Positions 12,827-30,229 of a stretch of 35,199 nucleotides of DNA are shown here, piece by piece. The position numbers were made by a program, and so were the translations under genes. The notes beneath the pieces are model-generated. The model did no database searches. It had not been told where the DNA came from and worked only from the letters and a program-made list of their open reading frames with translations. Position 1 is the stretch's first letter, and the number at the start of each line of letters is the position of its first letter. Origin of the DNA: a virus; the IMG/VR virus record IMGVR_UViG_3300028025_002206, positions 1-35,199 of that record. One strand, given 5' to 3'.

Positions 12827-15823
12827 TTATTTATATTTATCTAACCAACCACCGTTCTTCTTTTTCTTGGCAGTTACTGTGATGGGTTGCATTTCTTGAG
12901 GAATTTCAAAATACTCTCCAGGAAGAGTTCTTTCTAGATTTTTGTTTATATTTTCAAATACATTTGATGCATATGACCCTTTATCAAACAAGCTTGCTTT
13001 TTCTCTAATGATACGATTTCTTTCATTTGTTAACTCTTGTCCATAGAGATCTGTTCCAGCAAGCTCAGCATTTGCAGAATTTACGGGATTGGTTAAACTA
13101 CCACGGTACATATATGGAGTCCATCTACCAACACCACCATCTAGTTCACTAGCATCAACCCCTGGTTTACCTATAAGTTTTTCAGAAAGAGCCTCACCTT
13201 TATTTTCCATCCATTTACGATTCTTAACATTAATTGCTGTCATCAATGGAATAATCTTATCAAAATTATATAGGTCTTTTGGCTTCTTAATATCAAACTT
13301 TTCCTTAAGCTCTGGATCAATTGTGTTAAATTTGATTTGACCAGGACCTATTGACCAGGATTTAGGTTTGAATATTGTCTCAATAGTATTTTCTATACCA
13401 CCTGTTCCTCCAAAAAGTCTATCTTCCCATTTGTTTTCCTGTCCAAGTTCACCAAACGTATTCAATAATTCATCATGTATAATACCTTTATCAACTCCTA
13501 ATTTCTCAACAAGCTTGTTGATTTTTTTGTCATCATTAGCAAACTCAACAAATTTCTGCATTCCCTCAGGCTGGTCTCCATAATAAGGACTATCTTCTCT
13601 AATGGAATATTTATATCCTGGATTACGTGAAGTTTCCCAATCAACTTTCTCTTTACGACTAGCTAATGCTTTTCTTGTTTCTGGAGATGTTGAAGCTTCT
13701 CTTTCTTTTGCAATTAATTCTTTGTCTACATTATATCCTGGTCTGTAAATATTAACTTTATTATACCCTCCACCACCTTCTAGTTGCATTTTTTTCAACT
13801 CTGCTTCTGTATAAGTATCAGTCTTCATGGTTTTACCACCACTATTATCAATAATCTTATACATCTTTTCCCCAGCATCATTTACAAAACTATCATATAT
13901 CATCTTGTTATGACTAGCAGATCCTCTTTTTTTTCTGTATTGTAACATGTCACCAACTTGAAAATTACCATCTACCTGATAATAATCTTCATCACCTTTT
14001 GCTACAGCTTGTGCAAATTTCTCACCACTTAAAAACCTATCATTATCTGTAGGTTTATTGTATTTTAAACCAGCCTCAAGATTAAGTCCACATATACCAT
14101 TTATACAATTATTTCCAGTATTTATATCATGGTAGCTTGTATTTAATAAAAGATTTTCATCAGATCCTTGATTAGACAATACTCTTTCAGAAACTTCTTT
14201 TAATCTATTTCTATATGCATCTCTCTCATCAGTAGATTTAAAATAAGGAGTTGGTAAACTTTTACCATTTTGGGCTACAGGATATTCTGTAACCTTCTTA
14301 CCTTTGAATTTATAATCTTCTCCAGGATACATCATCTTTGTATCTCCTGTATCAGATATGCCAATCAGGGGTTGATTGACTCCTTGCATTGTTATATTGT
14401 TGCTTCCTATTTCTACAGGCTTTCCCCAGTTGTCAGAATTCCAATAACCCATGTCATCTTTCTTTATTTTGGATCCTTGCTTACTAATGTTCCTTGGTTT
14501 CCAATCTAGTCCTTCTTGGTAGAATTTCATCTCCTGACCATTCTGTGCACTAGGCATTGTCTTCTTAGCATATGGTCCTTCTGAAGGAATCCCTTTCGTA
14601 CGTGCGTATGTGAATCCTACAGCACCAGGCATTGATCCACCCATAGCAAACGCTCCTCCATATTCAGCCATGTTATCAGAAGAACTTCCCTTCAAATTAT
14701 TCATTGCTATGCGATTATTAAGATCTACTATATTCTTCTTATTGAAGTTTTTTAGCATTCTTTTAAAGTGAGGCTCATTAGAGATGTTTTTGTTTTTTAA
14801 TGCTTTTTCTATTGTTGACTCATCTATATCCTCTCCAAACTTTTTTGTCAATTTCTCTCTTTGAAAGAGAAGTCTTATTGCATCTAAATCTGATTTAAGC
14901 TCACTAGAATCAAAAGCGTGTGGGTCACCTGCTAATCCTGAACCATCTGCAGGATTACTATAGGTACCCCATTTTTTATTACTTTCAGCTTTTGCTAATA
15001 TAGCGTTTTTGTATTTTGGTGACATGTTTGCTCTATCTGTTATATAAAGCATTTCATTTACACTCATTCCTTTTCCACTAGCAGTATTAACATCACCAAA
15101 ATTAGATTTTGCATATTTATTTATTTTGGGATCAAAGAAAGTATCACCATAATTTGTTACATGAGATAGCTCATGCATCATAGTGTAATCAGAATCTTTT
15201 TGTTTAACTGTTAAAGCAGGAACTTGTTCCTTCTGATTTGGTTTTGTATATGCATAAATCAAAGAAGGACTTGGACCCACTGATACATCTACTTGATTAA
15301 GTTTGTTTAATCTTTCTTTAATAACTTTATCTGGATTAGCTACATTCATTCCTTCAAGTCTCTTTTTATAAATAGGAGAGTTGATATATGAAGCAAATGT
15401 TGATTTAATACTAGGAAGTCTTGAAGGAGCACCTTCTTTTTCATATGCTGAAGATTCTACATCTTCATTTTTTTCTAGTCCATTCTGTGCTTGTGGAATG
15501 TATCCACCATCTTCAAACTGTCCACCCCATGCAGGAGAATAGTTTCTACCCTTTGTGTTATTACCCATTCCTACAAATCCTGGACCCATAGATACAGAAC
15601 TATCATTGTAGTTCTCTTGGTGTTCTTGCATAGATCCACCATCTTCATATTTAGACAACCATCCTTCTTCAGCCTGAGGAACATAGCTTGCAGAATAGAC
15701 ATTACCCCCAAGCTGCATGTTCTTAATATCCTTACCACATATGTGACATACGTATGCATCCTTCTTACTGGAATCTGATTTATTCCAGGAATGTCCACAT
15801 GTGCATATAATCTTATTAGCCAT
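12827..15823 (-). CDS. Multidomain virion lysin: zinc ribbon, HExxH peptidase-like, Cys-peptidase-like and transglycosylase-like segments, 998 aa
   Basis: The ATG overlaps the upstream stop by one base (TAATG). Residues 7-29 have C7, C9, C26 and C29 spaced like a small zinc ribbon. MMHELSHVTNYG contains HExxH at 217-221 (H217, E218, H221), as in zinc metallopeptidases; acidic residues near 308-314 could supply a third ligand. Residues about 560-700 contain NNCINGICG (C573, C578), a GDML stretch and ASHNKMIYD (H638), resembling NlpC/P60 or CHAP cysteine peptidases. Residues about 785-905 contain GELGQEN (E792 or E796) and SIGPGQIKFNT, then a helical part, resembling lytic transglycosylases. 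Pro-x-Ala-Gln-x-Gly-like motifs recur at about 48, 108, 423 and 514, and the C-terminal GGWLDKYK echoes GWLSKYEDGG near residue 54. Likely role: local cell-wall opening during genome entry. Domain calls rest on motifs only. Confidence 0.7.
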   Translation of the reverse strand: MANKIICTCGHSWNKSDSSKKDAYVCHICGKDIKNMQLGGNVYSASYVPQAEEGWLSKYEDGGSMQEHQENYNDSSVSMGPGFVGMGNNTKGRNYSPAWGGQFEDGGYIPQAQNGLEKNEDVESSAYEKEGAPSRLPSIKSTFASYINSPIYKKRLEGMNVANPDKVIKERLNKLNQVDVSVGPSPSLIYAYTKPNQKEQVPALTVKQKDSDYTMMHELSHVTNYGDTFFDPKINKYAKSNFGDVNTASGKGMSVNEMLYITDRANMSPKYKNAILAKAESNKKWGTYSNPADGSGLAGDPHAFDSSELKSDLDAIRLLFQREKLTKKFGEDIDESTIEKALKNKNISNEPHFKRMLKNFNKKNIVDLNNRIAMNNLKGSSSDNMAEYGGAFAMGGSMPGAVGFTYARTKGIPSEGPYAKKTMPSAQNGQEMKFYQEGLDWKPRNISKQGSKIKKDDMGYWNSDNWGKPVEIGSNNITMQGVNQPLIGISDTGDTKMMYPGEDYKFKGKKVTEYPVAQNGKSLPTPYFKSTDERDAYRNRLKEVSERVLSNQGSDENLLLNTSYHDINTGNNCINGICGLNLEAGLKYNKPTDNDRFLSGEKFAQAVAKGDEDYYQVDGNFQVGDMLQYRKKRGSASHNKMIYDSFVNDAGEKMYKIIDNSGGKTMKTDTYTEAELKKMQLEGGGGYNKVNIYRPGYNVDKELIAKEREASTSPETRKALASRKEKVDWETSRNPGYKYSIREDSPYYGDQPEGMQKFVEFANDDKKINKLVEKLGVDKGIIHDELLNTFGELGQENKWEDRLFGGTGGIENTIETIFKPKSWSIGPGQIKFNTIDPELKEKFDIKKPKDLYNFDKIIPLMTAINVKNRKWMENKGEALSEKLIGKPGVDASELDGGVGRWTPYMYRGSLTNPVNSANAELAGTDLYGQELTNERNRIIREKASLFDKGSYASNVFENINKNLERTLPGEYFEIPQEMQPITVTAKKKKNGGWLDKYK

Positions 15824-16689
15824 TATTTGTAAGAGATTTGAGCAGGTGTGTAAATGAATTGGCTTACCAAATGTGCATCAGATCTGTCATCTAGAATATG
15901 TCTCACCTTTAATTCCTTAGCTCTAAGAGGTTCTTTCTTGAAAGACCTCTTTCCATAGTCCATATTTAACTGGTTGACTATTTTGTCAATAGACATTGAT
16001 TCACAACTCTTTGTAAACAAAGGTATGGATTTATCTTTAACTAATGACCAAAATGTATTATATTGATAGAAATTATCTGATTTAGTAAATGTAATTGTCT
16101 TACTATCAGCATCATATATAGGATACTTCAAGTATTCCTTTAGGTTGTTCATAGGTTTTGGAACCAGCTTAAGGATACCAGAACACTGTTGACCATTATA
16201 AAGAATAGCCTTATTGAAATATCTATCATCTGTTTCCACCTTTCTGTTATCATTAAACACCCCATCATCAGAAAGATATCTATAAGCCTTAGTGTAATCT
16301 TTTACATTCTGTAAGATTTCATCATAATACTGATAGGCAAATGGATATTCTATTATGTATTCTTTGATACATCCATAATAGGTGTTATATATAACAGGGT
16401 TTGTAAGATGTCTCCAAAGAGAAGCAGTGTTATAGTCTTTAAACTGTATAGTTGCTAGTTCTTCTACTGTAGCTGTTCCAATTGGGATTCTAATCTCTGT
16501 ATCACAACATGTGTATAATGACTTAATAATAATGACATTAACAGCATCATCCACACTCACTGTATATCCATCTATAAGATTTTTCTTAGTGATGTCAATA
16601 CCAAGTGTGGTCCCTCTATCATCATAGATGTTAAAGGGACCAGTTCGCCTGCCTGCACTTGTCAACTTTATAATAATTATTTTACTCAT
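15823..16689 (-). CDS. Tail-associated protein with conserved N-terminal domain, 288 aa
   Basis: ATG at 16687-16689. Residues 1-75 form a small beta-rich domain (LTSAGRRTGPFNIYDD, then LIDGYT and a Cys pair near residue 60). It is clearly related to the N-terminus of the neighbouring 218-residue protein: both have LTxAG, GPF, Tyr-Asp, LIxGYT and a Cys before a Gly-Thr. I recall this domain from many Bacteroidota phage structural proteins. The rest is different: an aromatic helical part (YEIIEYP-like, DYTKAYRYLSDDGVF), then FWSLVKDKSIPLF, NMDYGKRSFKKEPL and LKVRHILDDRSD, ending in FIYTPAQISYK. This C-terminal pattern also seems conserved in crAss-like phages just after the muzzle gene. No enzyme motif. 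Likely part of, or attached to, the tail; the N-terminal domain may be the docking part. Its stop overlaps the next ATG. Confidence 0.75.
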   Translation of the reverse strand: MSKIIIIKLTSAGRRTGPFNIYDDRGTTLGIDITKKNLIDGYTVSVDDAVNVIIIKSLYTCCDTEIRIPIGTATVEELATIQFKDYNTASLWRHLTNPVIYNTYYGCIKEYIIEYPFAYQYYDEILQNVKDYTKAYRYLSDDGVFNDNRKVETDDRYFNKAILYNGQQCSGILKLVPKPMNNLKEYLKYPIYDADSKTITFTKSDNFYQYNTFWSLVKDKSIPLFTKSCESMSIDKIVNQLNMDYGKRSFKKEPLRAKELKVRHILDDRSDAHLVSQFIYTPAQISYK

Positions 16690-16712: not shown

Positions 16713-17369
16713 TTATGGATAAGTAACTGTTAATGTTCCACTCAAGCTTATAGTTGATGGATAAGTGTCAGGAGTTATTAAAATTTTCAAAACTGAACCT
16801 GAAACAATTGATGATACAGTACACCCTACACCTCCAATACCATTAGCAACTATTACAGCAAGATCACCAACAGGAACTGAAGGAACAGATATTACTAATG
16901 GTCCTTGTGCTGAAGTTAGTGTGCCTGAAACAGTTATTGTTCCTGCACAATTATTAGGAGTAATAGTAGCAGTTGTTGTAAAATGACCTGGTGTAGCACT
17001 ACCATCCTGTGCTCTAAAATCTGAAGTTGATGATGCATCATTACAGAATTCAAAAAATCCCTCAAATGTTGCAATAGGAGCAGCAGTGGTAGTACTAGTA
17101 GTAGTACTAGTAGATGTACTTGTAGTTGTTGTGGTGGTTGTACCATTTTCTATAACTAGATAGAGATAGTTATCACATGTTCCATAAGACTGCGCTTTAA
17201 TTGTTGTAGCAAGATCTGGAACTAAAGAAGATGTATATCCTGCTATTAACGCAGCTCTAGACACACCTGTTTCAAAAGCTGATGTATAACCATCTGCATC
17301 AGAATATAGATCAAAAGGACCTACATCCACTCCTGCTAATGTTAATGTTATTAATACTGTCTGTGCCAT
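16713..17369 (-). CDS. Chimeric tail adhesin: N-terminal docking domain, Thr/Ser linker, beta-sandwich-like module, 218 aa
   Basis: ATG at 17367-17369. Three parts are visible. Residues 1-76 (ITLTLAGVDVGPFDLYSD, LIAGYT) are a paralogue of the N-terminus of the downstream 288-residue protein. Residues 77-95 are almost only Thr and Ser. Residues 96-218 (starting APIATFEGFF) contain GHFTTTATI, SGTLTSAQGPL and TPDTYPSTISLSGTLTVTY, and align over their whole length with a module near the C-terminus of the upstream muzzle protein. That module has the same landmarks: ATFAGSF, GHFPTT, SGTLTAAQGAL and YPSTVTLSGTITI. The predicted fold is beta-rich, and the protein is probably exposed on the tail as a host- or surface-binding adhesin. 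The ligand is unknown. The gene sits exactly between the two genes it resembles. Confidence 0.75.
   Translation of the reverse strand: MAQTVLITLTLAGVDVGPFDLYSDADGYTSAFETGVSRAALIAGYTSSLVPDLATTIKAQSYGTCDNYLYLVIENGTTTTTTTSTSTSTTTSTTTAAPIATFEGFFEFCNDASSTSDFRAQDGSATPGHFTTTATITPNNCAGTITVSGTLTSAQGPLVISVPSVPVGDLAVIVANGIGGVGCTVSSIVSGSVLKILITPDTYPSTISLSGTLTVTYP
17084..17150. repeat. Low-complexity repeat encoding the Thr/Ser linker of the 218-aa protein
   Basis: On the plus strand this is an imperfect run of gtagta/ctagta triplets, encoding mainly Thr and Ser on the minus strand. It shares runs such as agcagtggtagta with the 3' end of the gene at 29096-30229. Confidence 0.8.
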
Positions 17370-17393: not shown

Positions 17394-20300
17394 TTATGAA
17401 TTATTTGTTGTAGTGGTGGTGGTAGTTGGAGAAGCACCACATGATGTACAAGTTCCAGCACCTAATGCTACATATGTAAGACCTTGTCTAATAAATCTTC
17501 TTACATTAGTTCCATCAGAAATCCAGAAATATCCATTGCTAACAACGTTAGCATCAAAGCATGTACGATTGATTCCTCCAGCAGTGATGTTTATACCAGT
17601 ACAACCACATAATGTAGCTGTTCCATTGTATGTTATTTGAAAATTATCACATCCAGGAATACCATCACAAGCTTCACTAGAACTAACTGCTGATAGTGAA
17701 TATATTGTAGCAGCAGTTGTTGTAGATGTAGTAGTGGTAGGAGCAATGGTTGTTGTACTAGTTGTTGTACTAGTAGAAGTAGATGTACTGGTACTTGTTG
17801 TTGTACTTGTACTAGTAGAGCTACTTGTTGTTGTAGTGGTTGTTGGAGCTATATACTTGATAGTTATTGTTCCAGATAATGTAACAGTTGATGGATAGCT
17901 ATTAGGAGTTACAATCAATTGCAAATAACCAAGAGCTGTGCTCGTTGTTATTGTAGCATTAGTAGCAGCACCTGTACTACTAACTATTGTTGCTACAACA
18001 TTAGGACTTGGATTAGGAGGAAGTCCTATCTTTAAAGCTCCTTGTGCAGCAGTTAATGTACCACTAGCATTTATAGCTGCACTAGTTGCACCTATAGCAA
18101 CATTAGTTGTTGGAAAGTGACCAGTTACAGAACTTGTATCAATCACTGTAAATGCCTTTTGTGATGTAGCATCAACTGCAATTCTAAACGATCCTGCAAA
18201 TGTTGCTCTTGGTACAGCAGTGGTTGTGCTAGTTGTTGTTGTGCTAGTGCTAGTGCTAGTGCTTGTTGTTGTACTAGTAGATGATGTGCTAGTGGTGGTT
18301 GTTGTAGTAGTCTCTCCAAAAGCTGTACCAGCCATATCACAATTAGGAGAAATATAAAGTGCTGTTCCTTCTAGATCACAATCAGGAGTGATGTTAATTG
18401 CATTACCCTCCATATTACAATCAGGAATATAAGTGGTAGTTGTTGTTGTGGTTGCTGGAACTTCTTGTACAGCAATAGCATGTAAATCACAACCAATGTT
18501 AAGTCCAGAATAGAAGAAGTTGTTCTCACCTATATACCAATTAGGTATATAGCTGTGGAAACTTGTCCAGCTCTTTGTATTCATATTAAATGAAAGAGTC
18601 CAAGACTTATTACAGAAATACTCTATATCTGTTAAATAGACTATCTCACGAATTACAACAGGACTAATGTTTTCATCATTCTGTGGTATTATTCTTTCTA
18701 CATAAAAATCATTTGCAACACTATCGTATTTAACGTTAGAGTTCTGAGGGATGTAATCCAACTTGGATATAATCACCCTATCATACTTACTGTCATACAC
18801 ACCATGTAGTCCTACACCATTAAAATGGTTATCTACAGGTACATTAGGGAAATATCTAAGAATTTCAAATGCTAGGTGATCTGTAAAAAATCTGTTTAGC
18901 CCTGAACCAAATCCTGACAAATCTTGTGCTTGGTTTCCTGCTATTAAGAACACCTGTCCTCTCTTAGCATCTACAGTGATTTGTCCTTGAGGTATCTTAA
19001 GAAGCATTTTGTTCTGAGCTCCTACATAACCAAGATCTGTTTCTGCAAAATCTATTGGAGGGGCACTTCTAAATAATGTATCATTACCTAAGTAGGCAGC
19101 TTGAGGATTGCTTGTTTCAACAGTGAGCATTGTATTATATAACAAGCTCTTGTTCTCAAACCTAGCCAAAACAGCTCTGTTCTGAATACCATCAAGTGAT
19201 ACTAATTTACCATAGTTCTGAGGGAAATCAAAGAAACTAATAGGACGATAGATTAACCAGCTATTGATTCTATTATCTGTAAAGCTTTGTTGTCTATCAG
19301 AATATATTGCCCTGAATGGGAAGTTAGTGTAACATTGATTACCATCCCAGTCTATAGGTAGATGAGAGAAGAAGTTTTCTTTATTCTGCTTAGAGAACGT
19401 TGTATTATAATAGTAGGTGTTATCCTGATTGATAGGAACAAAGCTTTGTTGTAACCAATTATCAGGAATACCTGTGCTCACGTGTGGGAAGAAGTCTCCT
19501 TCTCTATTATTGAATGCTTGACGAAGATCTACATTCACTGCTGTTTCACAATAGAATGTAGGAATACCATAAGCAAATAAATAAAAACTACCACCATAAT
19601 ATGTTCTTCCAGGACTACCTACAGCTTGACTATTAGGACAATCAAAGTTGTGAGCTTTAATTGATATAATATTTTTCATTTCTGCAGTTCCAGACGTTGC
19701 TGCATTTGTAGCTGTATAGTTAGATAGAATAGATCTAGCTGAGTGCCAGTATTTAGGATAGGCAACATTACCTATCTCATCATAGAATATATCTGAATCA
19801 TCAGGAGCTCCCACTCTATTATCAATAAAGAAAGGAAGCTTAGTTTTAAATGCAAAGCCGTTAATGAATGTATCTCCACCAAACACTATTCCAGTGGTTG
19901 CTGAAGTGGCTTCTAAACTTTGGAATCCTGTATCAATTGTTTCATAAGAATAAATTTGACCCCACTGGTTATTAGCTATATTCTTTAGAGATCCATAATA
20001 TGTTACAGTGGATATGTCAAACTGATTTTCTGGCTGAAGACAGTTATTCTTTTCAGAAATAGTATATCTTGATTTATCCTCAATAGCAGAGTTTGTTCCA
20101 CTACCTATTAATAAACTTGGTGTATCACTTGGATAAGGAAGGCTAGTTACAGAGTTTCCATCTCTAGCTTCAATTGTCTTTATATAAACAGATGATTCTC
20201 TGTCATAGTTATTGATATTGAGATCGTCTCCTACATTTTGTACACCAGGGATAAGGTATTGATATAAGCTAAGTTCTCTTTGTTTAACTCCTAAATTGTT

Positions 20301-22910
20301 ATCAATAGGTGCCCAATAGTTATATTTAGCTATTGAGTTATATGATTTAGCATAATTCTTTCTAGTGATACCATTTATGTAAATCTGCAAGTATGCCTGA
20401 TAGGCAGTGAACATTGCTGTCGAATTAAATGGATTAGTTATATTAGCAATAGCCTCACTAGATTTTAACGCATCTTCCTGTGCTTCTTTACTTATAAGCT
20501 TGTACATTGCGTTCTTAGTCACTTGTACAAAGTGAGCAGATCCAGCACCATATATTGCACTTTCAAGTTTTATAATGTTTCCCAAGAAAGGTTTTCCAAA
20601 AGATGTCTCTGGAGAATTAAATACAAATCTATAAGGAGATTTAGTATTATCAAACGCCTGCAACTGATCAATACTTACAGTACAGTTAGCAAGCCCTACA
20701 TGTTCAGTTTGAAGTGTCACTGTATATCTACCACTTCCTTCAATTTGTATAGGTTTTGTAATAGAATCAACTACACTGCAGTTTGGAGAAAGAAACCCAC
20801 CAGCAACCCAAATTGTAGTGGGTTCTTTAGCTGTTGGAGGAAAATATGAAAATCTATTACCAGCAGCAAATGCGTTTGAACATATTTGATATGTTCCATA
20901 ATTTGTTGCTGTTATACTACCATCACCTGGTAATGTCAGAGTGGGAAAACTAGTAGAGCATATATTAACTGTAGTTCCAGAAGTAGCAGCTAATGTTGTT
21001 TCTTCTGCTGTATCACAATTATAATAAGTGATTGTAGTGTTATTAGTTACAGTTATTTGATACTCTCTACATACAGCATCAAATGCATTATTTTCTGCAA
21101 GAAGAAATGGATCTGTTCTAAGATCATTATATGGATAGTTAGGGAAGTAATAAGATGTTCCTTCTCTTTCATACTCACCAAGGTTTCTAAGAATACCTTT
21201 TGCTATAATTGATGTATTTGTACTTCTGTTTCCTCTAACTATTTTAAATCCAACAACACTATCTTTTTGATCTCGTGTGAGATTAGATGTTTCTATAAAC
21301 TGATAAACTTGTTGCACATCTATCTTTACACCAATTGGGTAGATAGCAGCATTTTCCATCTTTAAATTTGTGTATGTACCATCATAAGCAATGGTTGGAA
21401 CACCACTTTCAAATATAGGACTTACAAGAACATCTGGAAACTTATGGTGTCTAATTGGTGTATTTGCAAGGTCTCCCCACACAGCATCATTACATGGATA
21501 GACATCTGTAGATTCCCAATAAGCAAATTCTCCATATTGATATGGAGTGGCATTACCAATAGAATTACCTACAGCAGACCCTATTACGGAACCTGTATTA
21601 TATATCTTCCAATAAGGAGCACTTGTTCCATCTCCTATGAAATCAGGATTAGTATCCTGTACATCTGGATAAAACTCATTAAAGTTTTTAGCTCTTCCAG
21701 GAATGTGAAACCCATCTGTTTGTTTACCATTATCTAAAAGAAACACTATCTCAAAAGCATACACCTCATCACGAAGATATCCTCTTAGATTTGTAGCGTT
21801 TATTGGATCAGCATAGTTTTCATCAGCAGGAAGAGTATATGTCTGCCAATTAAGTTTAATTTGATTTGCTATCTGTTGATAGTTAATCCTATCTATAGAT
21901 GTAATGTTATCCCAAACAAGTACATCTTGTACAGCTGTTAAGTCTTGAGCTATTTCATAATATGGAAACTTCTCAAATATATCATTAATAGTAAGTCTTA
22001 TTTGTGTTTGATTCTGACCACTATATGTTATCTGGTTAAAATTATCATCTATAAAGTATGTCCCTACAAGTTCTACAGATGTAATATCATTTACTGTTTT
22101 AATTACAGCGATGTTATAATAAGTAAAATATCCTGTAACATCTATATTATTGATATCCAATACAATAGATCTTCCTACAGGATAGTTAAAATCTGCTGTT
22201 GTATTAGTAGTGATGGCAATTGGTGTAGGATTAGTTACAGAATAATAAGATGTGTAAGCATCTCCTGCAGCATCACAATATTGTATAGAAAACTGATATG
22301 TACCAGCAGTAAGACTTCCACCATTAACAACATCTACAACTGTTAATTCAGGAATTGTAAAGTTAGGCTGAACCTTTAGTTTATTACAATCTAATTCTGG
22401 AATTGTCTCATTATCACAAACATTTGTTCCAGGTTTTATTTTATATGGAAGATTGTTAAGATCCATGAATCTACGTGGATTCAAACCATCTGTCCAATAA
22501 ATCTCTGTAGAACAGTTTGTAATCTTATGTACAGCTTTATGAATTGGGTAGTCTATATTAAAATTAAGACAAAGACCACTTATGTATGTATGATAGATAC
22601 AATCATTATTATCCATATATCCAATCTCACTAGCCCCTGTATCAGGATTAGTTAAAAAGAATATATGTTTGTTCTGTTCAACAATTGCATGAGTTCCTAT
22701 TAGATGATAGTTTGCAGGAAAATTCAAGCAAAGTTCATTCCCTGGCTCATTCTGATAGTTAACAGAGTTTGAGTCAAAGTTTTCTACAGCAGCATTAAGG
22801 GCATACGTAAGCTGACCTTTTTGAATTTGGTTCAGAGTTTGATCCATGTTCAAGCCAGTCCTAGCTACATTATTTTCTTGCTTTATATTTGATTCTTGTT
22901 GATCAGCCAT
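17394..22910 (-). CDS. Muzzle (stem) protein, with C-terminal adhesion modules on Thr/Ser linkers, 1,838 aa
   Basis: I start at the ATG at 22908-22910, two bases after the upstream stop; an in-frame TTG at 22931 would add seven residues inside the previous gene. The N-terminal body (about 1-1480) is a large beta-rich structural part containing YALNAAVENFDSNS, IGTHAIVEQNKHIFF and TEIYWTDGLNPRRFMDLNN. I recognise these as typical of the crAss-like stem/muzzle protein, which forms the distal short tail and was compared with P22 gp10. A modular C-terminus follows: Thr run (about 1487-1494), three 13-residue Cys repeats (PDCNMEGNAINIT type, about 1495-1533), Thr/Ser linker, beta module (about 1565-1687), a long Thr/Ser linker (to about 1736), a Cys-rich domain (about 1737-1826) and a terminal Thr tail. 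The body is longer than needed for host attachment alone; the modules probably face outward. Module ligands are unknown. Confidence 0.85.
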   Translation of the reverse strand: MADQQESNIKQENNVARTGLNMDQTLNQIQKGQLTYALNAAVENFDSNSVNYQNEPGNELCLNFPANYHLIGTHAIVEQNKHIFFLTNPDTGASEIGYMDNNDCIYHTYISGLCLNFNIDYPIHKAVHKITNCSTEIYWTDGLNPRRFMDLNNLPYKIKPGTNVCDNETIPELDCNKLKVQPNFTIPELTVVDVVNGGSLTAGTYQFSIQYCDAAGDAYTSYYSVTNPTPIAITTNTTADFNYPVGRSIVLDINNIDVTGYFTYYNIAVIKTVNDITSVELVGTYFIDDNFNQITYSGQNQTQIRLTINDIFEKFPYYEIAQDLTAVQDVLVWDNITSIDRINYQQIANQIKLNWQTYTLPADENYADPINATNLRGYLRDEVYAFEIVFLLDNGKQTDGFHIPGRAKNFNEFYPDVQDTNPDFIGDGTSAPYWKIYNTGSVIGSAVGNSIGNATPYQYGEFAYWESTDVYPCNDAVWGDLANTPIRHHKFPDVLVSPIFESGVPTIAYDGTYTNLKMENAAIYPIGVKIDVQQVYQFIETSNLTRDQKDSVVGFKIVRGNRSTNTSIIAKGILRNLGEYEREGTSYYFPNYPYNDLRTDPFLLAENNAFDAVCREYQITVTNNTTITYYNCDTAEETTLAATSGTTVNICSTSFPTLTLPGDGSITATNYGTYQICSNAFAAGNRFSYFPPTAKEPTTIWVAGGFLSPNCSVVDSITKPIQIEGSGRYTVTLQTEHVGLANCTVSIDQLQAFDNTKSPYRFVFNSPETSFGKPFLGNIIKLESAIYGAGSAHFVQVTKNAMYKLISKEAQEDALKSSEAIANITNPFNSTAMFTAYQAYLQIYINGITRKNYAKSYNSIAKYNYWAPIDNNLGVKQRELSLYQYLIPGVQNVGDDLNINNYDRESSVYIKTIEARDGNSVTSLPYPSDTPSLLIGSGTNSAIEDKSRYTISEKNNCLQPENQFDISTVTYYGSLKNIANNQWGQIYSYETIDTGFQSLEATSATTGIVFGGDTFINGFAFKTKLPFFIDNRVGAPDDSDIFYDEIGNVAYPKYWHSARSILSNYTATNAATSGTAEMKNIISIKAHNFDCPNSQAVGSPGRTYYGGSFYLFAYGIPTFYCETAVNVDLRQAFNNREGDFFPHVSTGIPDNWLQQSFVPINQDNTYYYNTTFSKQNKENFFSHLPIDWDGNQCYTNFPFRAIYSDRQQSFTDNRINSWLIYRPISFFDFPQNYGKLVSLDGIQNRAVLARFENKSLLYNTMLTVETSNPQAAYLGNDTLFRSAPPIDFAETDLGYVGAQNKMLLKIPQGQITVDAKRGQVFLIAGNQAQDLSGFGSGLNRFFTDHLAFEILRYFPNVPVDNHFNGVGLHGVYDSKYDRVIISKLDYIPQNSNVKYDSVANDFYVERIIPQNDENISPVVIREIVYLTDIEYFCNKSWTLSFNMNTKSWTSFHSYIPNWYIGENNFFYSGLNIGCDLHAIAVQEVPATTTTTTTYIPDCNMEGNAINITPDCDLEGTALYISPNCDMAGTAFGETTTTTTTSTSSTSTTTSTSTSTSTTTTSTTTAVPRATFAGSFRIAVDATSQKAFTVIDTSSVTGHFPTTNVAIGATSAAINASGTLTAAQGALKIGLPPNPSPNVVATIVSSTGAATNATITTSTALGYLQLIVTPNSYPSTVTLSGTITIKYIAPTTTTTTSSSTSTSTTTSTSTSTSTSTTTSTTTIAPTTTTSTTTAATIYSLSAVSSSEACDGIPGCDNFQITYNGTATLCGCTGINITAGGINRTCFDANVVSNGYFWISDGTNVRRFIRQGLTYVALGAGTCTSCGASPTTTTTTTNNS
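17712..17843. repeat. Low-complexity repeat encoding the last Thr/Ser linker of the muzzle protein
   Basis: Imperfect repeats of gttgta, ctagta and gatgta on the plus strand encode about 44 residues, nearly all Thr or Ser, broken by one Ile-Ala-Pro. It separates the beta module from the C-terminal Cys-rich domain. Confidence 0.8.
18218..18308. repeat. Low-complexity repeat encoding the middle Thr/Ser linker of the muzzle protein
   Basis: Imperfect repeats of gttgtt, gctagt and gtagta on the plus strand encode about 30 Thr/Ser residues between the Cys repeats and the beta module. The hexamer gctagt is repeated head to tail near 18241-18260. Confidence 0.8.
18309..18425 (-). repeat. Three tandem 39-bp repeats encoding 13-residue Cys motifs in the muzzle protein
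   Basis: The units are 18387-18425, 18348-18386 and 18309-18347, encoding PDCNMEGNAINIT, PDCDLEGTALYIS and PNCDMAGTAFGET. Pro1, Cys3, Gly7 and Ala9 are invariant. The DNA of the units has diverged while the protein pattern is kept, which suggests selection on the motif. Confidence 0.85.
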
Positions 22911-22912
22911 AG

Positions 22913-23890
22913 TTATCCATTTCTTCTCCAACCATACCTACTCACCCTGTTAGGGAGTTCGTACATATTGAATCTATTAAGGTCTTGTACAATTCTTCTT
23001 TGTTTAGTCCAAGCATCTTGCTTCTTGATTTCAATATCAGCCATGATAAATGCTTCTTCAGACAGTTGTTTATAATACATCAACTTCTGTTGAATCTGAT
23101 TAAATGTTTCATCATTGATTTGGTTAGATAGAGTTTCAAACACTTTGTATTTGATAAATGCTTCTACGTATTCTCTAATACGATAGTTATCAGGAAGCAT
23201 TTGATTTCCACCATTATCATATTCTGTAGAATAGAACACTAGGTGAACGATAGAATTTCTAAAGTTAGTAACAAACTTATTATCCCTTACATCAAATGAA
23301 TCAAAGGAGGCTGCTCCAGGAGTGAACTCATTGATAGAAGGAGCACGTTGTGCAAATTCACAGTTGTCTGTATATTCTAAACCACAGTTATTTCTTGCAG
23401 AAATATTACCTGGTTTAAGTAGATAGCTCTTTCTATAAGATCTAGACATCTGACCATTGGTCTTGTATACAGCTTGGATTAGTTCTGGTAGACAAGAATG
23501 TCCATCACAACCTGGTGTAACACAATCTAAGTTTGTACAAGGTTGTCCTCCTGATATAACAGGACTAACTTGTATTGTTGTAATGTCTGCAGCCTGAGAG
23601 TAGAATGAATTAGCTGTTTGATATGGTGTCTGTGGTATTTCTGCACACATCCACGCTTCTCTTACAGCAAAGAAATTGTCTGGAAGTCTTGCTTCAAAAT
23701 CACAAATGTCCAATGCAGTTTCTTGTATCTGATAAGAAGATCTACCTAGCTTATTCAAACATTTGTTTAAATAGGTAGGAAACATAAGATCGTCTACAGC
23801 TCCTGTATCAAAATAGCTTTTAAGCTCTTCCTTTACAGTGGAGTAGACAGGTTCAGGGCTTACGAAATTATATCTGTAATAGTAACTCAT
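22913..23890 (-). CDS. Tail ring / stabilisation protein (P22 gp4-like), 325 aa
   Basis: ATG at 23888-23890, five bases after the previous stop. The N-terminus (MSYYYRYNFVSPEPVYSTVK, ELKSYFDTGAVDDLMFPTYL, CLNKLGRSSYQI) and the later DNFFAVREAWMC and FEARLP are patterns I associate with the crAss-like tail stabilisation protein compared with P22 gp4, a head-to-tail ring protein. The middle part has several Cys (NLDCVTPGCDGHSCLPE), and the C-terminal half is helical (EAFIKYKVFETLSNQINDET, KKQDAWTKQRRIVQDL). It ends just before the muzzle gene, the expected partner of a ring protein. It should sit between the portal and the muzzle. Family call from memory of conserved stretches; its exact place in the stack of rings cannot be told from sequence. 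Confidence 0.75.
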   Translation of the reverse strand: MSYYYRYNFVSPEPVYSTVKEELKSYFDTGAVDDLMFPTYLNKCLNKLGRSSYQIQETALDICDFEARLPDNFFAVREAWMCAEIPQTPYQTANSFYSQAADITTIQVSPVISGGQPCTNLDCVTPGCDGHSCLPELIQAVYKTNGQMSRSYRKSYLLKPGNISARNNCGLEYTDNCEFAQRAPSINEFTPGAASFDSFDVRDNKFVTNFRNSIVHLVFYSTEYDNGGNQMLPDNYRIREYVEAFIKYKVFETLSNQINDETFNQIQQKLMYYKQLSEEAFIMADIEIKKQDAWTKQRRIVQDLNRFNMYELPNRVSRYGWRRNG

Positions 23891-26516: not shown

Positions 26517-26870
26517 TTACAAGAGAATGGTGGTTGTAGAAGTTGTTGTACTTGTTGATGTACTAGTAGATGTAGTGGTTGTTAGACATGCTTGTACTAA
26601 TTCACAGAACTGTGTATTGTATTGTGCATTTGTTTGAATGATTGCTAATACAACACTAGTCAAAGCTTCTGGGCAGAGTAGATCATTAATTTTATCAATA
26701 ACGCAAGTGAGAGTGTCTTGAAAGTTAATACCTGTACATGGAAGGTTAGGTCCATTGTACAAAATAAGATCAGTATTTAACCCAAGACCATCAAGCCAAC
26801 CATTATTACATTTCTTTGGAAACACAACATTGGTTATAGAATAACAGGGCATACCAGGAACACAAGCCAT
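26517..26870 (-). CDS. Short head-fibre-like protein ending in a bare Thr/Ser tail, 117 aa
   Basis: ATG at 26868-26870. The N-terminus has a string of Cys residues and the stretch ILYNGPNLPCTGINFQDTL followed by a short helix (VIDKINDLL). I recall this Tyr-x-Gly-Pro-Asn-Leu-Pro-Cys-x-Gly-Ile pattern as the start of head-fibre or capsid-bound proteins in Bacteroidota phages. The upstream 383-residue fibre has a looser version (RYTGLPSEALGIETNDSL). Another helix follows (VVLAIIQTNAQYNTQFCELV), then 18 Thr/Ser residues and ILL before the stop. In other genes of this window such a linker leads to a further domain; here nothing follows and the terminator comes next. It could be a complete short fibre, or a fibre that has lost its outer module. 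Last gene of the capsid unit. Confidence 0.65.
   Translation of the reverse strand: MACVPGMPCYSITNVVFPKKCNNGWLDGLGLNTDLILYNGPNLPCTGINFQDTLTCVIDKINDLLCPEALTSVVLAIIQTNAQYNTQFCELVQACLTTTTSTSTSTSTTTSTTTILL
26529..26583. repeat. Low-complexity repeat encoding the Thr/Ser tail of the 117-aa protein
   Basis: Imperfect gttgta, gatgta and ctagta repeats on the plus strand, closely resembling those at 17084-17150 and 17712-17843. It lies directly before the end of the gene. Confidence 0.75.
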
Positions 26871-29095: not shown

Positions 29096-30229
29096 TTAAG
29101 CAGCAGTGGTAGTAGAAGTTGTAGATGTAGTACAAACACTCTGATTATCTGCAGCACCTAATGCGTTAGCAAGAGCACTGTCTACAGCAACAGATAGAGC
29201 ACCTTGAGGAGCAGCAATAATTACTGTTGCATCTTCATATATGTAGTCACCCCACTGATAAGCTGATTTGTCATACTCGTTAAACTTGATGTAATAAGTA
29301 TCGTAGGTAGTACCTGCAGAAACCCAAGACTCAAAGTTTTCGTTATAACCAGCCATTCTGTAAAGATGCTTCAAGTAACCAGCTTGGTAGCTGTAGAAGT
29401 TTTTCTCAAGTTGTTGAATCTCAGCAGAAGTTCCAGAAGGATAAGATGAAGTTTGAACAACAGCAGCTAAAGCTACAATGTTACAAGCATCAGCAACAAT
29501 AAAGTCAGCTGTAGTTGCAGGTCCACTGTAAACGAAAGTTCTGAAGTACATTCTGTCATATTCCCAAGGGAATGCAGCAACGTCACATGGTTGTCCATAA
29601 GCAGTCAAAGCTTTTCCTGTGATTTCAAGAACACCAGGAACAGGTTGATCGAATGTGTAGAAAGTGTTAAAGCTAATGTTGTCAGGGTTGATACCAGGAG
29701 CTTGAGCTTCAAACTTAGCAATGATTTGGTTAACCAAAGCTTCGTAATCAACTTGAGTACATGGATCACCACCACAATCACAACATGGTGCGTTAACAGT
29801 AATGCTACGAGTGAAACCATTGAAATACAATGTGTCAATGTAGCTAGAATGTGCACGAAGAGTGATAGTAATAACATCACCACAAGTTACATTCCAATCA
29901 GAAACTTCAGTAATCTGATTTAGTGGAGCAGGACAACCATAAACTTTATACCACTCAGTGATATTAGATTTACAATTTGTACCAGATGCACAACCTGCGA
30001 TCTTGTCAGAACGCTTAGATCCTTGAAGATAGGTGTTAACCCTACCTTGAGCAACATAGAAATAAGGAGAGGCACCACCAGCTACTTTTGTAGAAGGGGT
30101 TAAGGTAGCTTCGTAGTTAGAATCAAAGAAACCAACTTCACCAGCTGCCAAGTCTTGCGTAGAACCACTATTGGCTATTGTTGAGCCAACAGGAACCACG
30201 AAGAGCGTAGTTAGAGAAAAATCTGCCAT
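29096..30229 (-). CDS. Major virion protein, candidate auxiliary capsid protein, with Thr/Ser C-terminal tail, 377 aa
   Basis: ATG at 30227-30229. A beta-rich protein without enzyme motifs. It has many Cys (CASGTNCKSN, APCCDCGGDPCTQ), a middle domain starting QVDYEALVNQIIAKFEA, and a C-terminal part with FYSYQAGYLKHLYRMAGYNE and YDTYYIKFNEYDKSAYQWGD. It ends in CTTSTTSTTTAA. Codons are less AT-biased than in most neighbours, as in the major capsid gene, suggesting high expression; this is a visual judgement. In the structurally described crassvirus the auxiliary capsid protein is encoded a few genes after the capsid protein, as here. That assignment is inference; another abundant surface protein remains possible. 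The Thr tail stops exactly where other genes in this window begin an outward module. Confidence 0.65.
   Translation of the reverse strand: MADFSLTTLFVVPVGSTIANSGSTQDLAAGEVGFFDSNYEATLTPSTKVAGGASPYFYVAQGRVNTYLQGSKRSDKIAGCASGTNCKSNITEWYKVYGCPAPLNQITEVSDWNVTCGDVITITLRAHSSYIDTLYFNGFTRSITVNAPCCDCGGDPCTQVDYEALVNQIIAKFEAQAPGINPDNISFNTFYTFDQPVPGVLEITGKALTAYGQPCDVAAFPWEYDRMYFRTFVYSGPATTADFIVADACNIVALAAVVQTSSYPSGTSAEIQQLEKNFYSYQAGYLKHLYRMAGYNENFESWVSAGTTYDTYYIKFNEYDKSAYQWGDYIYEDATVIIAAPQGALSVAVDSALANALGAADNQSVCTTSTTSTTTAA

Follow-up and report, generated by a model that had tools for sequence, protein, structure and literature searches.

The gene MOD (modular cargo gene; positions 12827-15823, minus strand) was analysed in a 35,199-base virus fragment of IMG/VR (record IMGVR_UViG_3300028025_002206), and this whole fragment is the window throughout this text. 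MOD encodes a protein of 998 amino acids (aa) followed by a stop codon. The protein is probably a modular cargo protein in the virion of a crAss-like phage, in which a constant carrier holds exchangeable entry enzymes or effectors. The original prediction had read the same chain as one virion protein with three candidate lytic activities. All of its motifs are present in the 998-residue open reading frame (ORF), namely HExxH at residues 217-221, C573, C578 and H638, SIGPGQI at 824-830 and the N-terminal zinc ribbon. All of the window features described below lie on the minus strand, and locus numbers such as L002 denote relatives gathered by scans.

In the proposed mechanism, a skeleton composed of the zinc ribbon, WLxKY/GG linkers, a D module of about 70 residues and a C-terminal GGWLxKY tag would pack and dock MOD alongside cargo protein 1, close to the portal and tail. 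The exchangeable enzymes, inserted between the skeleton segments, would be ejected at infection. In the window, the payload would consist of a zincin and a probable endopeptidase-lysozyme pair. The pair would cut a way through the peptidoglycan for the tail and the cargo, and the zincin would either trim the cargo chain or attack a host protein.

Constant skeleton and exchangeable payloads

The family was collected in two scans. The first gave 58 loci, and the second, carried out with the D module, gave 339 places of which 80 were kept. There were 107 distinct D-containing ORFs, 102 of the MOD type and five also matching C1, the gene at the cargo-protein-1 position. In all of the 95 testable loci, g288 or muzzle was found upstream of MOD and C1 downstream (muzzle, g288, MOD, C1, C2). 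Because the set was gathered via the skeleton, the universality of the skeleton is partly by construction, but the diversity of the payloads is not. In an all-against-all comparison of 46 proteins, skeleton segments were typically matched by 34-44 of the 46 and payload regions by 0-8. The linkers and the D module are thus common to most members, whereas the stretches between them are private to a few. Chains have 0-4 payload segments, and the median skeleton is 303 aa and the median payload 538 aa. L024, the shortest member that appears intact, consists of 229 aa of skeleton and has no payload.

The payloads are diverse. HExxH is present in 39 of the 102 MOD proteins, and in the first set it appeared in 20 of 46 against 0.4 expected from shuffles. 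The Pfam tally comprised SLT (3, best 6.8e-13), Glucosaminidase (1), ART-PolyVal (2), His_Phos (2), GNAT (1) and DUF6973 (3); these scans count families without naming members, and the locus of GNAT or ART was partly judged by eye. In the window protein, the zincin sits in slot 1, slot 2 is empty and slot 3 is filled by two domains hereafter called the Cys-Lys pair. The pair occurs without a window-type zincin in L002, L003, L004 and L065, and the zincin occurs without the pair in L038 and L005. Unrelated enzymatic domains stand in one chain, as is characteristic of polyvalent proteins, both in the window (zincin and Cys-Lys pair) and in its sisters (Pfam-certified domains). As for the slot-2 payloads of other members (L003, L021, L045, L046, L092, L105), a Pro/Ala-rich, mildly hydrophobic end of the LPAVVPAIGVGAAA type often stands directly before the D module, and some of them open with a common 'DA..DP.N..G' stretch.

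Closely related phages differ in payload at this locus. L020 and L021 are 99% identical in the flanks on both sides, and the payload is GNAT-like (by eye) in the former and a zincin in the latter. L026 and L027 share 99.86% identity along 6.3 kb upstream, after which slot 1 is filled in one and empty in the other. The same kind of difference was observed between L019 and L022 and between L002 and L003. The swap junctions fall on short GG linkers (Q-x-GG or EGG-VIKDD). Therefore, the constant linkers look like joints for cassette exchange. A fixed locus with a changing payload and a constant frame and neighbours points to virion-delivered enzymes under strong diversifying selection. A wider proposal, which we put forward tentatively and slightly short of even chances, is that many crAss-like phages carry such a 'cartridge' locus. 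Payloads swapped wholesale between near-identical phages (zincins, ART, GNAT, wall hydrolases) would then amount to a polymorphic system of effectors delivered by the virion, through which entry and early takeover are adapted to the host.

The skeleton of the window protein begins with the zinc ribbon (residues 1-40, 15704-15823; C7, C9, C26 and C29 in the form C-x-C...C-x2-C), and a zinc ribbon lies within the first 70 aa in 41 of 102 family members. It is followed by the linker motifs PQAEEG (residues 49-54, 15662-15679) and PQAQNG (residues 110-115, 15479-15496), the latter directly ahead of the zincin. A constant linker (residues 388-429, GGSMPGAVGFTYART...PSAQNG, 14537-14662) is matched in up to 44 of 45 sister proteins. 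The constant D module (residues 452-521, GYWNSDNWGKPVEIGSNNITMQGV...VTEYPVAQNG) is located at 14261-14470. The chain ends with the GGWLDKY tag (residues 991-997, 12833-12853), and a WLxKY-type C-terminus is found in 91 of 102 members. With respect to transmembrane insertion, a mean hydropathy of 1.6 over 19 residues is reached in two of the 102 chains, and the window protein is not one of them. Whole-protein searches of the window protein against Pfam, PHROG, NCBIfam and PDB sequences returned nothing usable. The sub-threshold or PDB sequence matches to alginate lyase, rotavirus NSP2 and a clostridial neurotoxin fragment were weak or due to chance and were rejected.

Predicted enzymatic domains of the window protein

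The assignment of residues 126-382 (14678-15448) as a zincin metallopeptidase is well supported by alignment, by the AlphaFold model and by homology to gp041 of Cellulophaga phage phi4:1. H217, E218, H221, E308 and R317 are invariant across 13 zincin homologues with identities down to about 17%. HELSH (residues 217-221, 15161-15175) would supply two zinc ligands and the general base, and E308 (14900-14902) is the predicted third zinc ligand. The model has a predicted local distance difference test score (pLDDT) of 75 and a predicted template modelling score of 0.79. Its core is composed of a helix (46-59), three strands (61-64, 70-75, 82-88), the HExxH helix (94-104) and a later helix bearing E308 (188-204). 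The last two helices correspond to residues 212-222 and 306-322 of the chain. MPTase domains of polyvalent proteins, for which 12 clades are published, have been described as a helix preceding a three-stranded sheet, a HExxH helix and a second helix with a conserved Glu (PMC5512222). The window zincin has the same elements, the HExxH helix with the later Glu helix and the helix ahead of the three-stranded sheet. Since MPTase domains are proposed processing or effector peptidases, there is no pointer to a lytic function of the zincin. A search of a viral library with the zincin returned structural proteins of the Cellulophaga phages phi4:1 (E 1.8e-7) and phi14:2 (E 4.8e-7).

The Cys-Lys pair occupies residues 528-918. 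Its first half (residues 528-701, 13721-14242) is a probable papain-like cysteine peptidase or amidase. C573 (14105-14107) is the candidate nucleophile and H638 (13910-13912) the candidate catalytic His. C573, C578 (14090-14092), the GD motif and H638 are invariant, a 24%-identical relative (L052) included. The series typical of NlpC/P60 or CHAP peptidases, a conserved Cys, then GD-x3-Y/F and then His, is present. Among PF00877, PF05257 and PF12671, no Pfam cut-off was reached by residues 528-701 (PF00877 gave no match and Amidase_6 gave 0.038). The distant relative L052 matched Amidase_6 with an E value of 0.0011, also below the cut-off. Profile comparison identified L092 and L102 as certain relatives of this domain (97.8%).

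The second half (residues 724-918, 13070-13654) is a probable lysozyme-superfamily domain, as suggested by conservation, and it is statistically not established. E792, E796, S824, G826, P827, G828 and Q829 are invariant in the five sequences available. SIGPGQI (residues 824-830, 13334-13354) appears as SVGPGQI in L065, and L092 and L102 have GQETKF and SVGEFQQ/SIGEFQQ (SVGEFQQ in L092) at the matching places. The original prediction had put the catalytic Glu at about residue 792. E792 (13448-13450) is indeed conserved, but E796 in GQENKW (13436-13438) is the better candidate, since GQET stands at this position of the alignment in the two more distant homologues. The PF01464 (SLT) search of this domain did not reach the cut-off. 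Its profile comparison gave P 0.048, close to the value for a true lysozyme pair (0.031), with 0.36 for the negative control. No significant result came from profile comparison with NlpC/P60 and SLT enzymes of E. coli, and a scan of genome contigs for the Cys-Lys pair found no relative. The model of slot 3 (528-918) had a pLDDT of 46, which is too poor to use, and its fold search was uninformative. The reading of 528-918 as a papain-like peptidase plus a lysozyme-like domain is probable but not established, and weaker than the zincin assignment.

These results support the original prediction in part. The proposed catalytic residues (H217/E218/H221, the Cys/His pair and the Glu residues) proved invariant in the homologues. 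In the structure prediction, the zincin shows the expected core but the other two domains gave no usable fold. The NlpC/P60- or CHAP-like motif order is present, and E796 and S-[IV]-GPGQI of the candidate transglycosylase-like part are conserved, but both assignments stay below the family cut-offs.

Genomic locus and virion association

The other genes of the window lie on the same strand as MOD. Their order is major head protein, muzzle-like protein, g288, MOD, C1, C2 and a very large protein. The major head protein matches phrog_11589. The muzzle-like tail protein (17394-22931) matched, by tblastn, structural proteins of the Cellulophaga phages phi4:1 and phi17:2 and of the human-gut phage csAssE-Sib (1e-54 to csAssE-Sib and 9e-52 to phi4:1). 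C1 (9482-12805) has the P-x-A-[QE]-x-G motif in common with MOD. The crassvirus muzzle and capsid proteins and the gene order, which is as in crAss001 and phi14:2, place the window in Crassvirales. The usual crassvirus order is muzzle, cargo 1, cargo 2 and RNA polymerase, and in the window MOD is inserted behind muzzle and g288.

The virion claim of the original prediction gained support from cultured phages. In phi4:1, gp041 lies directly after muzzle and before the C1-like gp040. It contains Phage_lysozyme2 (5e-32) and two HExxH sites, and its C-terminal zincin is homologous to the window zincin (hhalign 99.5%, E 5e-23; hidden Markov model 9e-33). In phi14:2 (Steigviridae), gp081 (L167:10361-12142) takes the corresponding position and contains two HExxH sites together with Pfam crAss_CARG1 (2.8e-10). 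According to the record notes, both proteins were annotated as structural from experimental tandem mass spectrometry (MS/MS). The record label of gp081 is only 'structural protein'. The crAss_CARG1 family spans residues 424-555 of crAss001 gp45, and residues 425-552 are the portion seen bound to the portal (PMC10172136).

MOD is also linked to cargo protein 1. The D module was found at the start of phi4:1 gp040, a cargo-1-like protein (1.6e-10), at the start of C1 in L019, and at the start of a protein of Leptolyngbya phage Lbo-JY46 (1.5e-22). Four apparent MOD-C1 fusions of 1189-1277 aa, judged by length and C1 score (L008:5875-9609, L095:5191-8997, L135:5590-9156, L139:5269-9099), suggest that the two proteins work together. 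By analogy with these systems, MOD is most likely packaged together with cargo protein 1, and its ejection would follow from the published model of crassvirus infection.

Several results weigh against the carrier reading. Foldseek of the zincin against the PDB gave no significant fold match. The papain-like and lysozyme-like assignments fall below family cut-offs and have a poor model. Neither terminase nor portal is encoded in the window, which is a fragment of 35 kb. The docking role of the D module rests on association, since no D module was found in phi14:2 gp081 or in crAss001 gp45.

Some further observations concern the neighbourhood. g288 (15823-16689) matches the C-terminal ~190 positions of phrog_15100, a virion structural family of 1783 positions, as though part of a larger tail protein had split off into a gene of its own. 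Thr/Ser-rich runs (TTTTTSTSTSTTTS) form tails or linkers in four virion-region genes (17394-22931, 16713-17369, 26517-26870 and 29096-30229), and their repetition over four genes is unusual. Lbo-JY46 (L073, PP438436.1) is a crAss-like phage with an assigned cyanobacterial host, and its D-module protein has a transglycosylase-like end. The real host may be a Bacteroidota contaminant of the culture.

Alternative explanations and known systems

A dedicated lytic entry enzyme, whose three parts act jointly on the cell envelope, would agree with the virion association of the homologues. The Cys-Lys pair travels as a unit even in the distant L092 and L102, L092 has a related zincin together with the pair, and phi4:1 gp041 unites a certified tail lysozyme with zincins. 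Nevertheless, we regard it as improbable. The zincin and the pair occur apart (L004, L065, L038, L005), ART, GNAT or phosphatase domains stand in the same slots, and most family members have no recognisable lytic domain. What survives from the original prediction is thus a virion-associated chain that combines a metallopeptidase with a probable pair for cutting peptide and glycan bonds of peptidoglycan, but not one integrated lytic enzyme, because the cassettes occur apart and sister skeletons hold different enzymes. The payloads could instead be mainly effectors injected against host physiology or defence, in the manner of polymorphic toxins, with the wall-cutting pair being incidental. The ART-PolyVal, GNAT and His_Phos domains, the divergent zincins and the rapid payload swapping would fit. 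However, the payloads also include certified peptidoglycan hydrolases (SLT, Glucosaminidase, tail lysozyme), and this explanation seems rather doubtful.

The clearest unexplained element is the P-x-A-[QEK]-x-G motif. It was counted 81 times in MOD against 2.4 expected and 49 times in C1 against 5.0 expected, and none was found in muzzle, g288 or C2. Of the 187 sites in the 102 proteins, payloads contain 19, where 109 were expected. This distribution would suit a cleavage site, and a motif that serves for docking or as a hinge is just as possible. If the linkers were protease sites, MOD would be a polyprotein precursor, and its payloads would be freed either inside the capsid or once ejected, perhaps through the action of the zincin itself. 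For polyvalent proteins, it has been proposed that MPTase domains carry out autoprocessing (PMC5512222). On the other hand, the number of motifs is independent of HExxH in the same chain (2.0 versus 1.7 per protein), and phi14:2 gp081 has no such motif. Moreover, a search of 13 relatives (108-117 kb) for prohead proteases of the S78 or ClpP type found none, and this makes a role as cleavage site less likely. We consider such processing somewhat unlikely; it is compatible with the carrier reading, as it concerns processing.

The carrier reading bears on how crassviruses breach the Bacteroidota envelope and on what is injected besides DNA and RNA polymerase. It is testable with the cultured Cellulophaga phages whose homologues were detected in virions. 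The literature searched, with most subscription papers outside its reach, contained no description of a constant crassvirus carrier whose payloads can be swapped.

Known systems resemble MOD in part. Endopeptidase and lysozyme are combined in one chain in tail-associated two-domain peptidoglycan hydrolases of the phi29 gp13 and CwlT type. The same pairing is proposed for MOD 528-918, but its domain families are too diverged for the Pfam models. MOD shares its locus and zincin family with phi4:1 gp041 and phi14:2 gp081. Neither of them has a zinc ribbon or a D module; instead, gp041 has the tail lysozyme and two HExxH sites, and gp081 has two HExxH sites and the CARG1 domain. Cargo protein 1 (crAss001 gp45, PF25725) is encoded by the neighbouring gene, some C1 proteins share the D module and P-x-A-Q-x-G with MOD, and natural fusions exist. 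In contrast, no enzymatic payload has been described for gp45, a putative channel protein, and the window C1 does not reach PF25725 in a search. Polyvalent proteins of phages and conjugative elements are large virion-packaged multidomain chains, in which the zincin-like MPTase is the commonest domain beside ART, GNAT and lysozyme domains (Iyer, Burroughs, Aravind 2017, PMC5512222); the word crAss is absent from that paper. The MOD family also has zincin, ART, GNAT and lysozyme-type domains. However, its payloads are set on a constant crassvirus skeleton at one fixed locus, and no DNA-metabolism domains were seen in it. The polyvalent theme is already known. For MOD, a cassette carrier is the better description, and a metallopeptidase and a probable wall-cutting pair are what it happens to carry in this phage.
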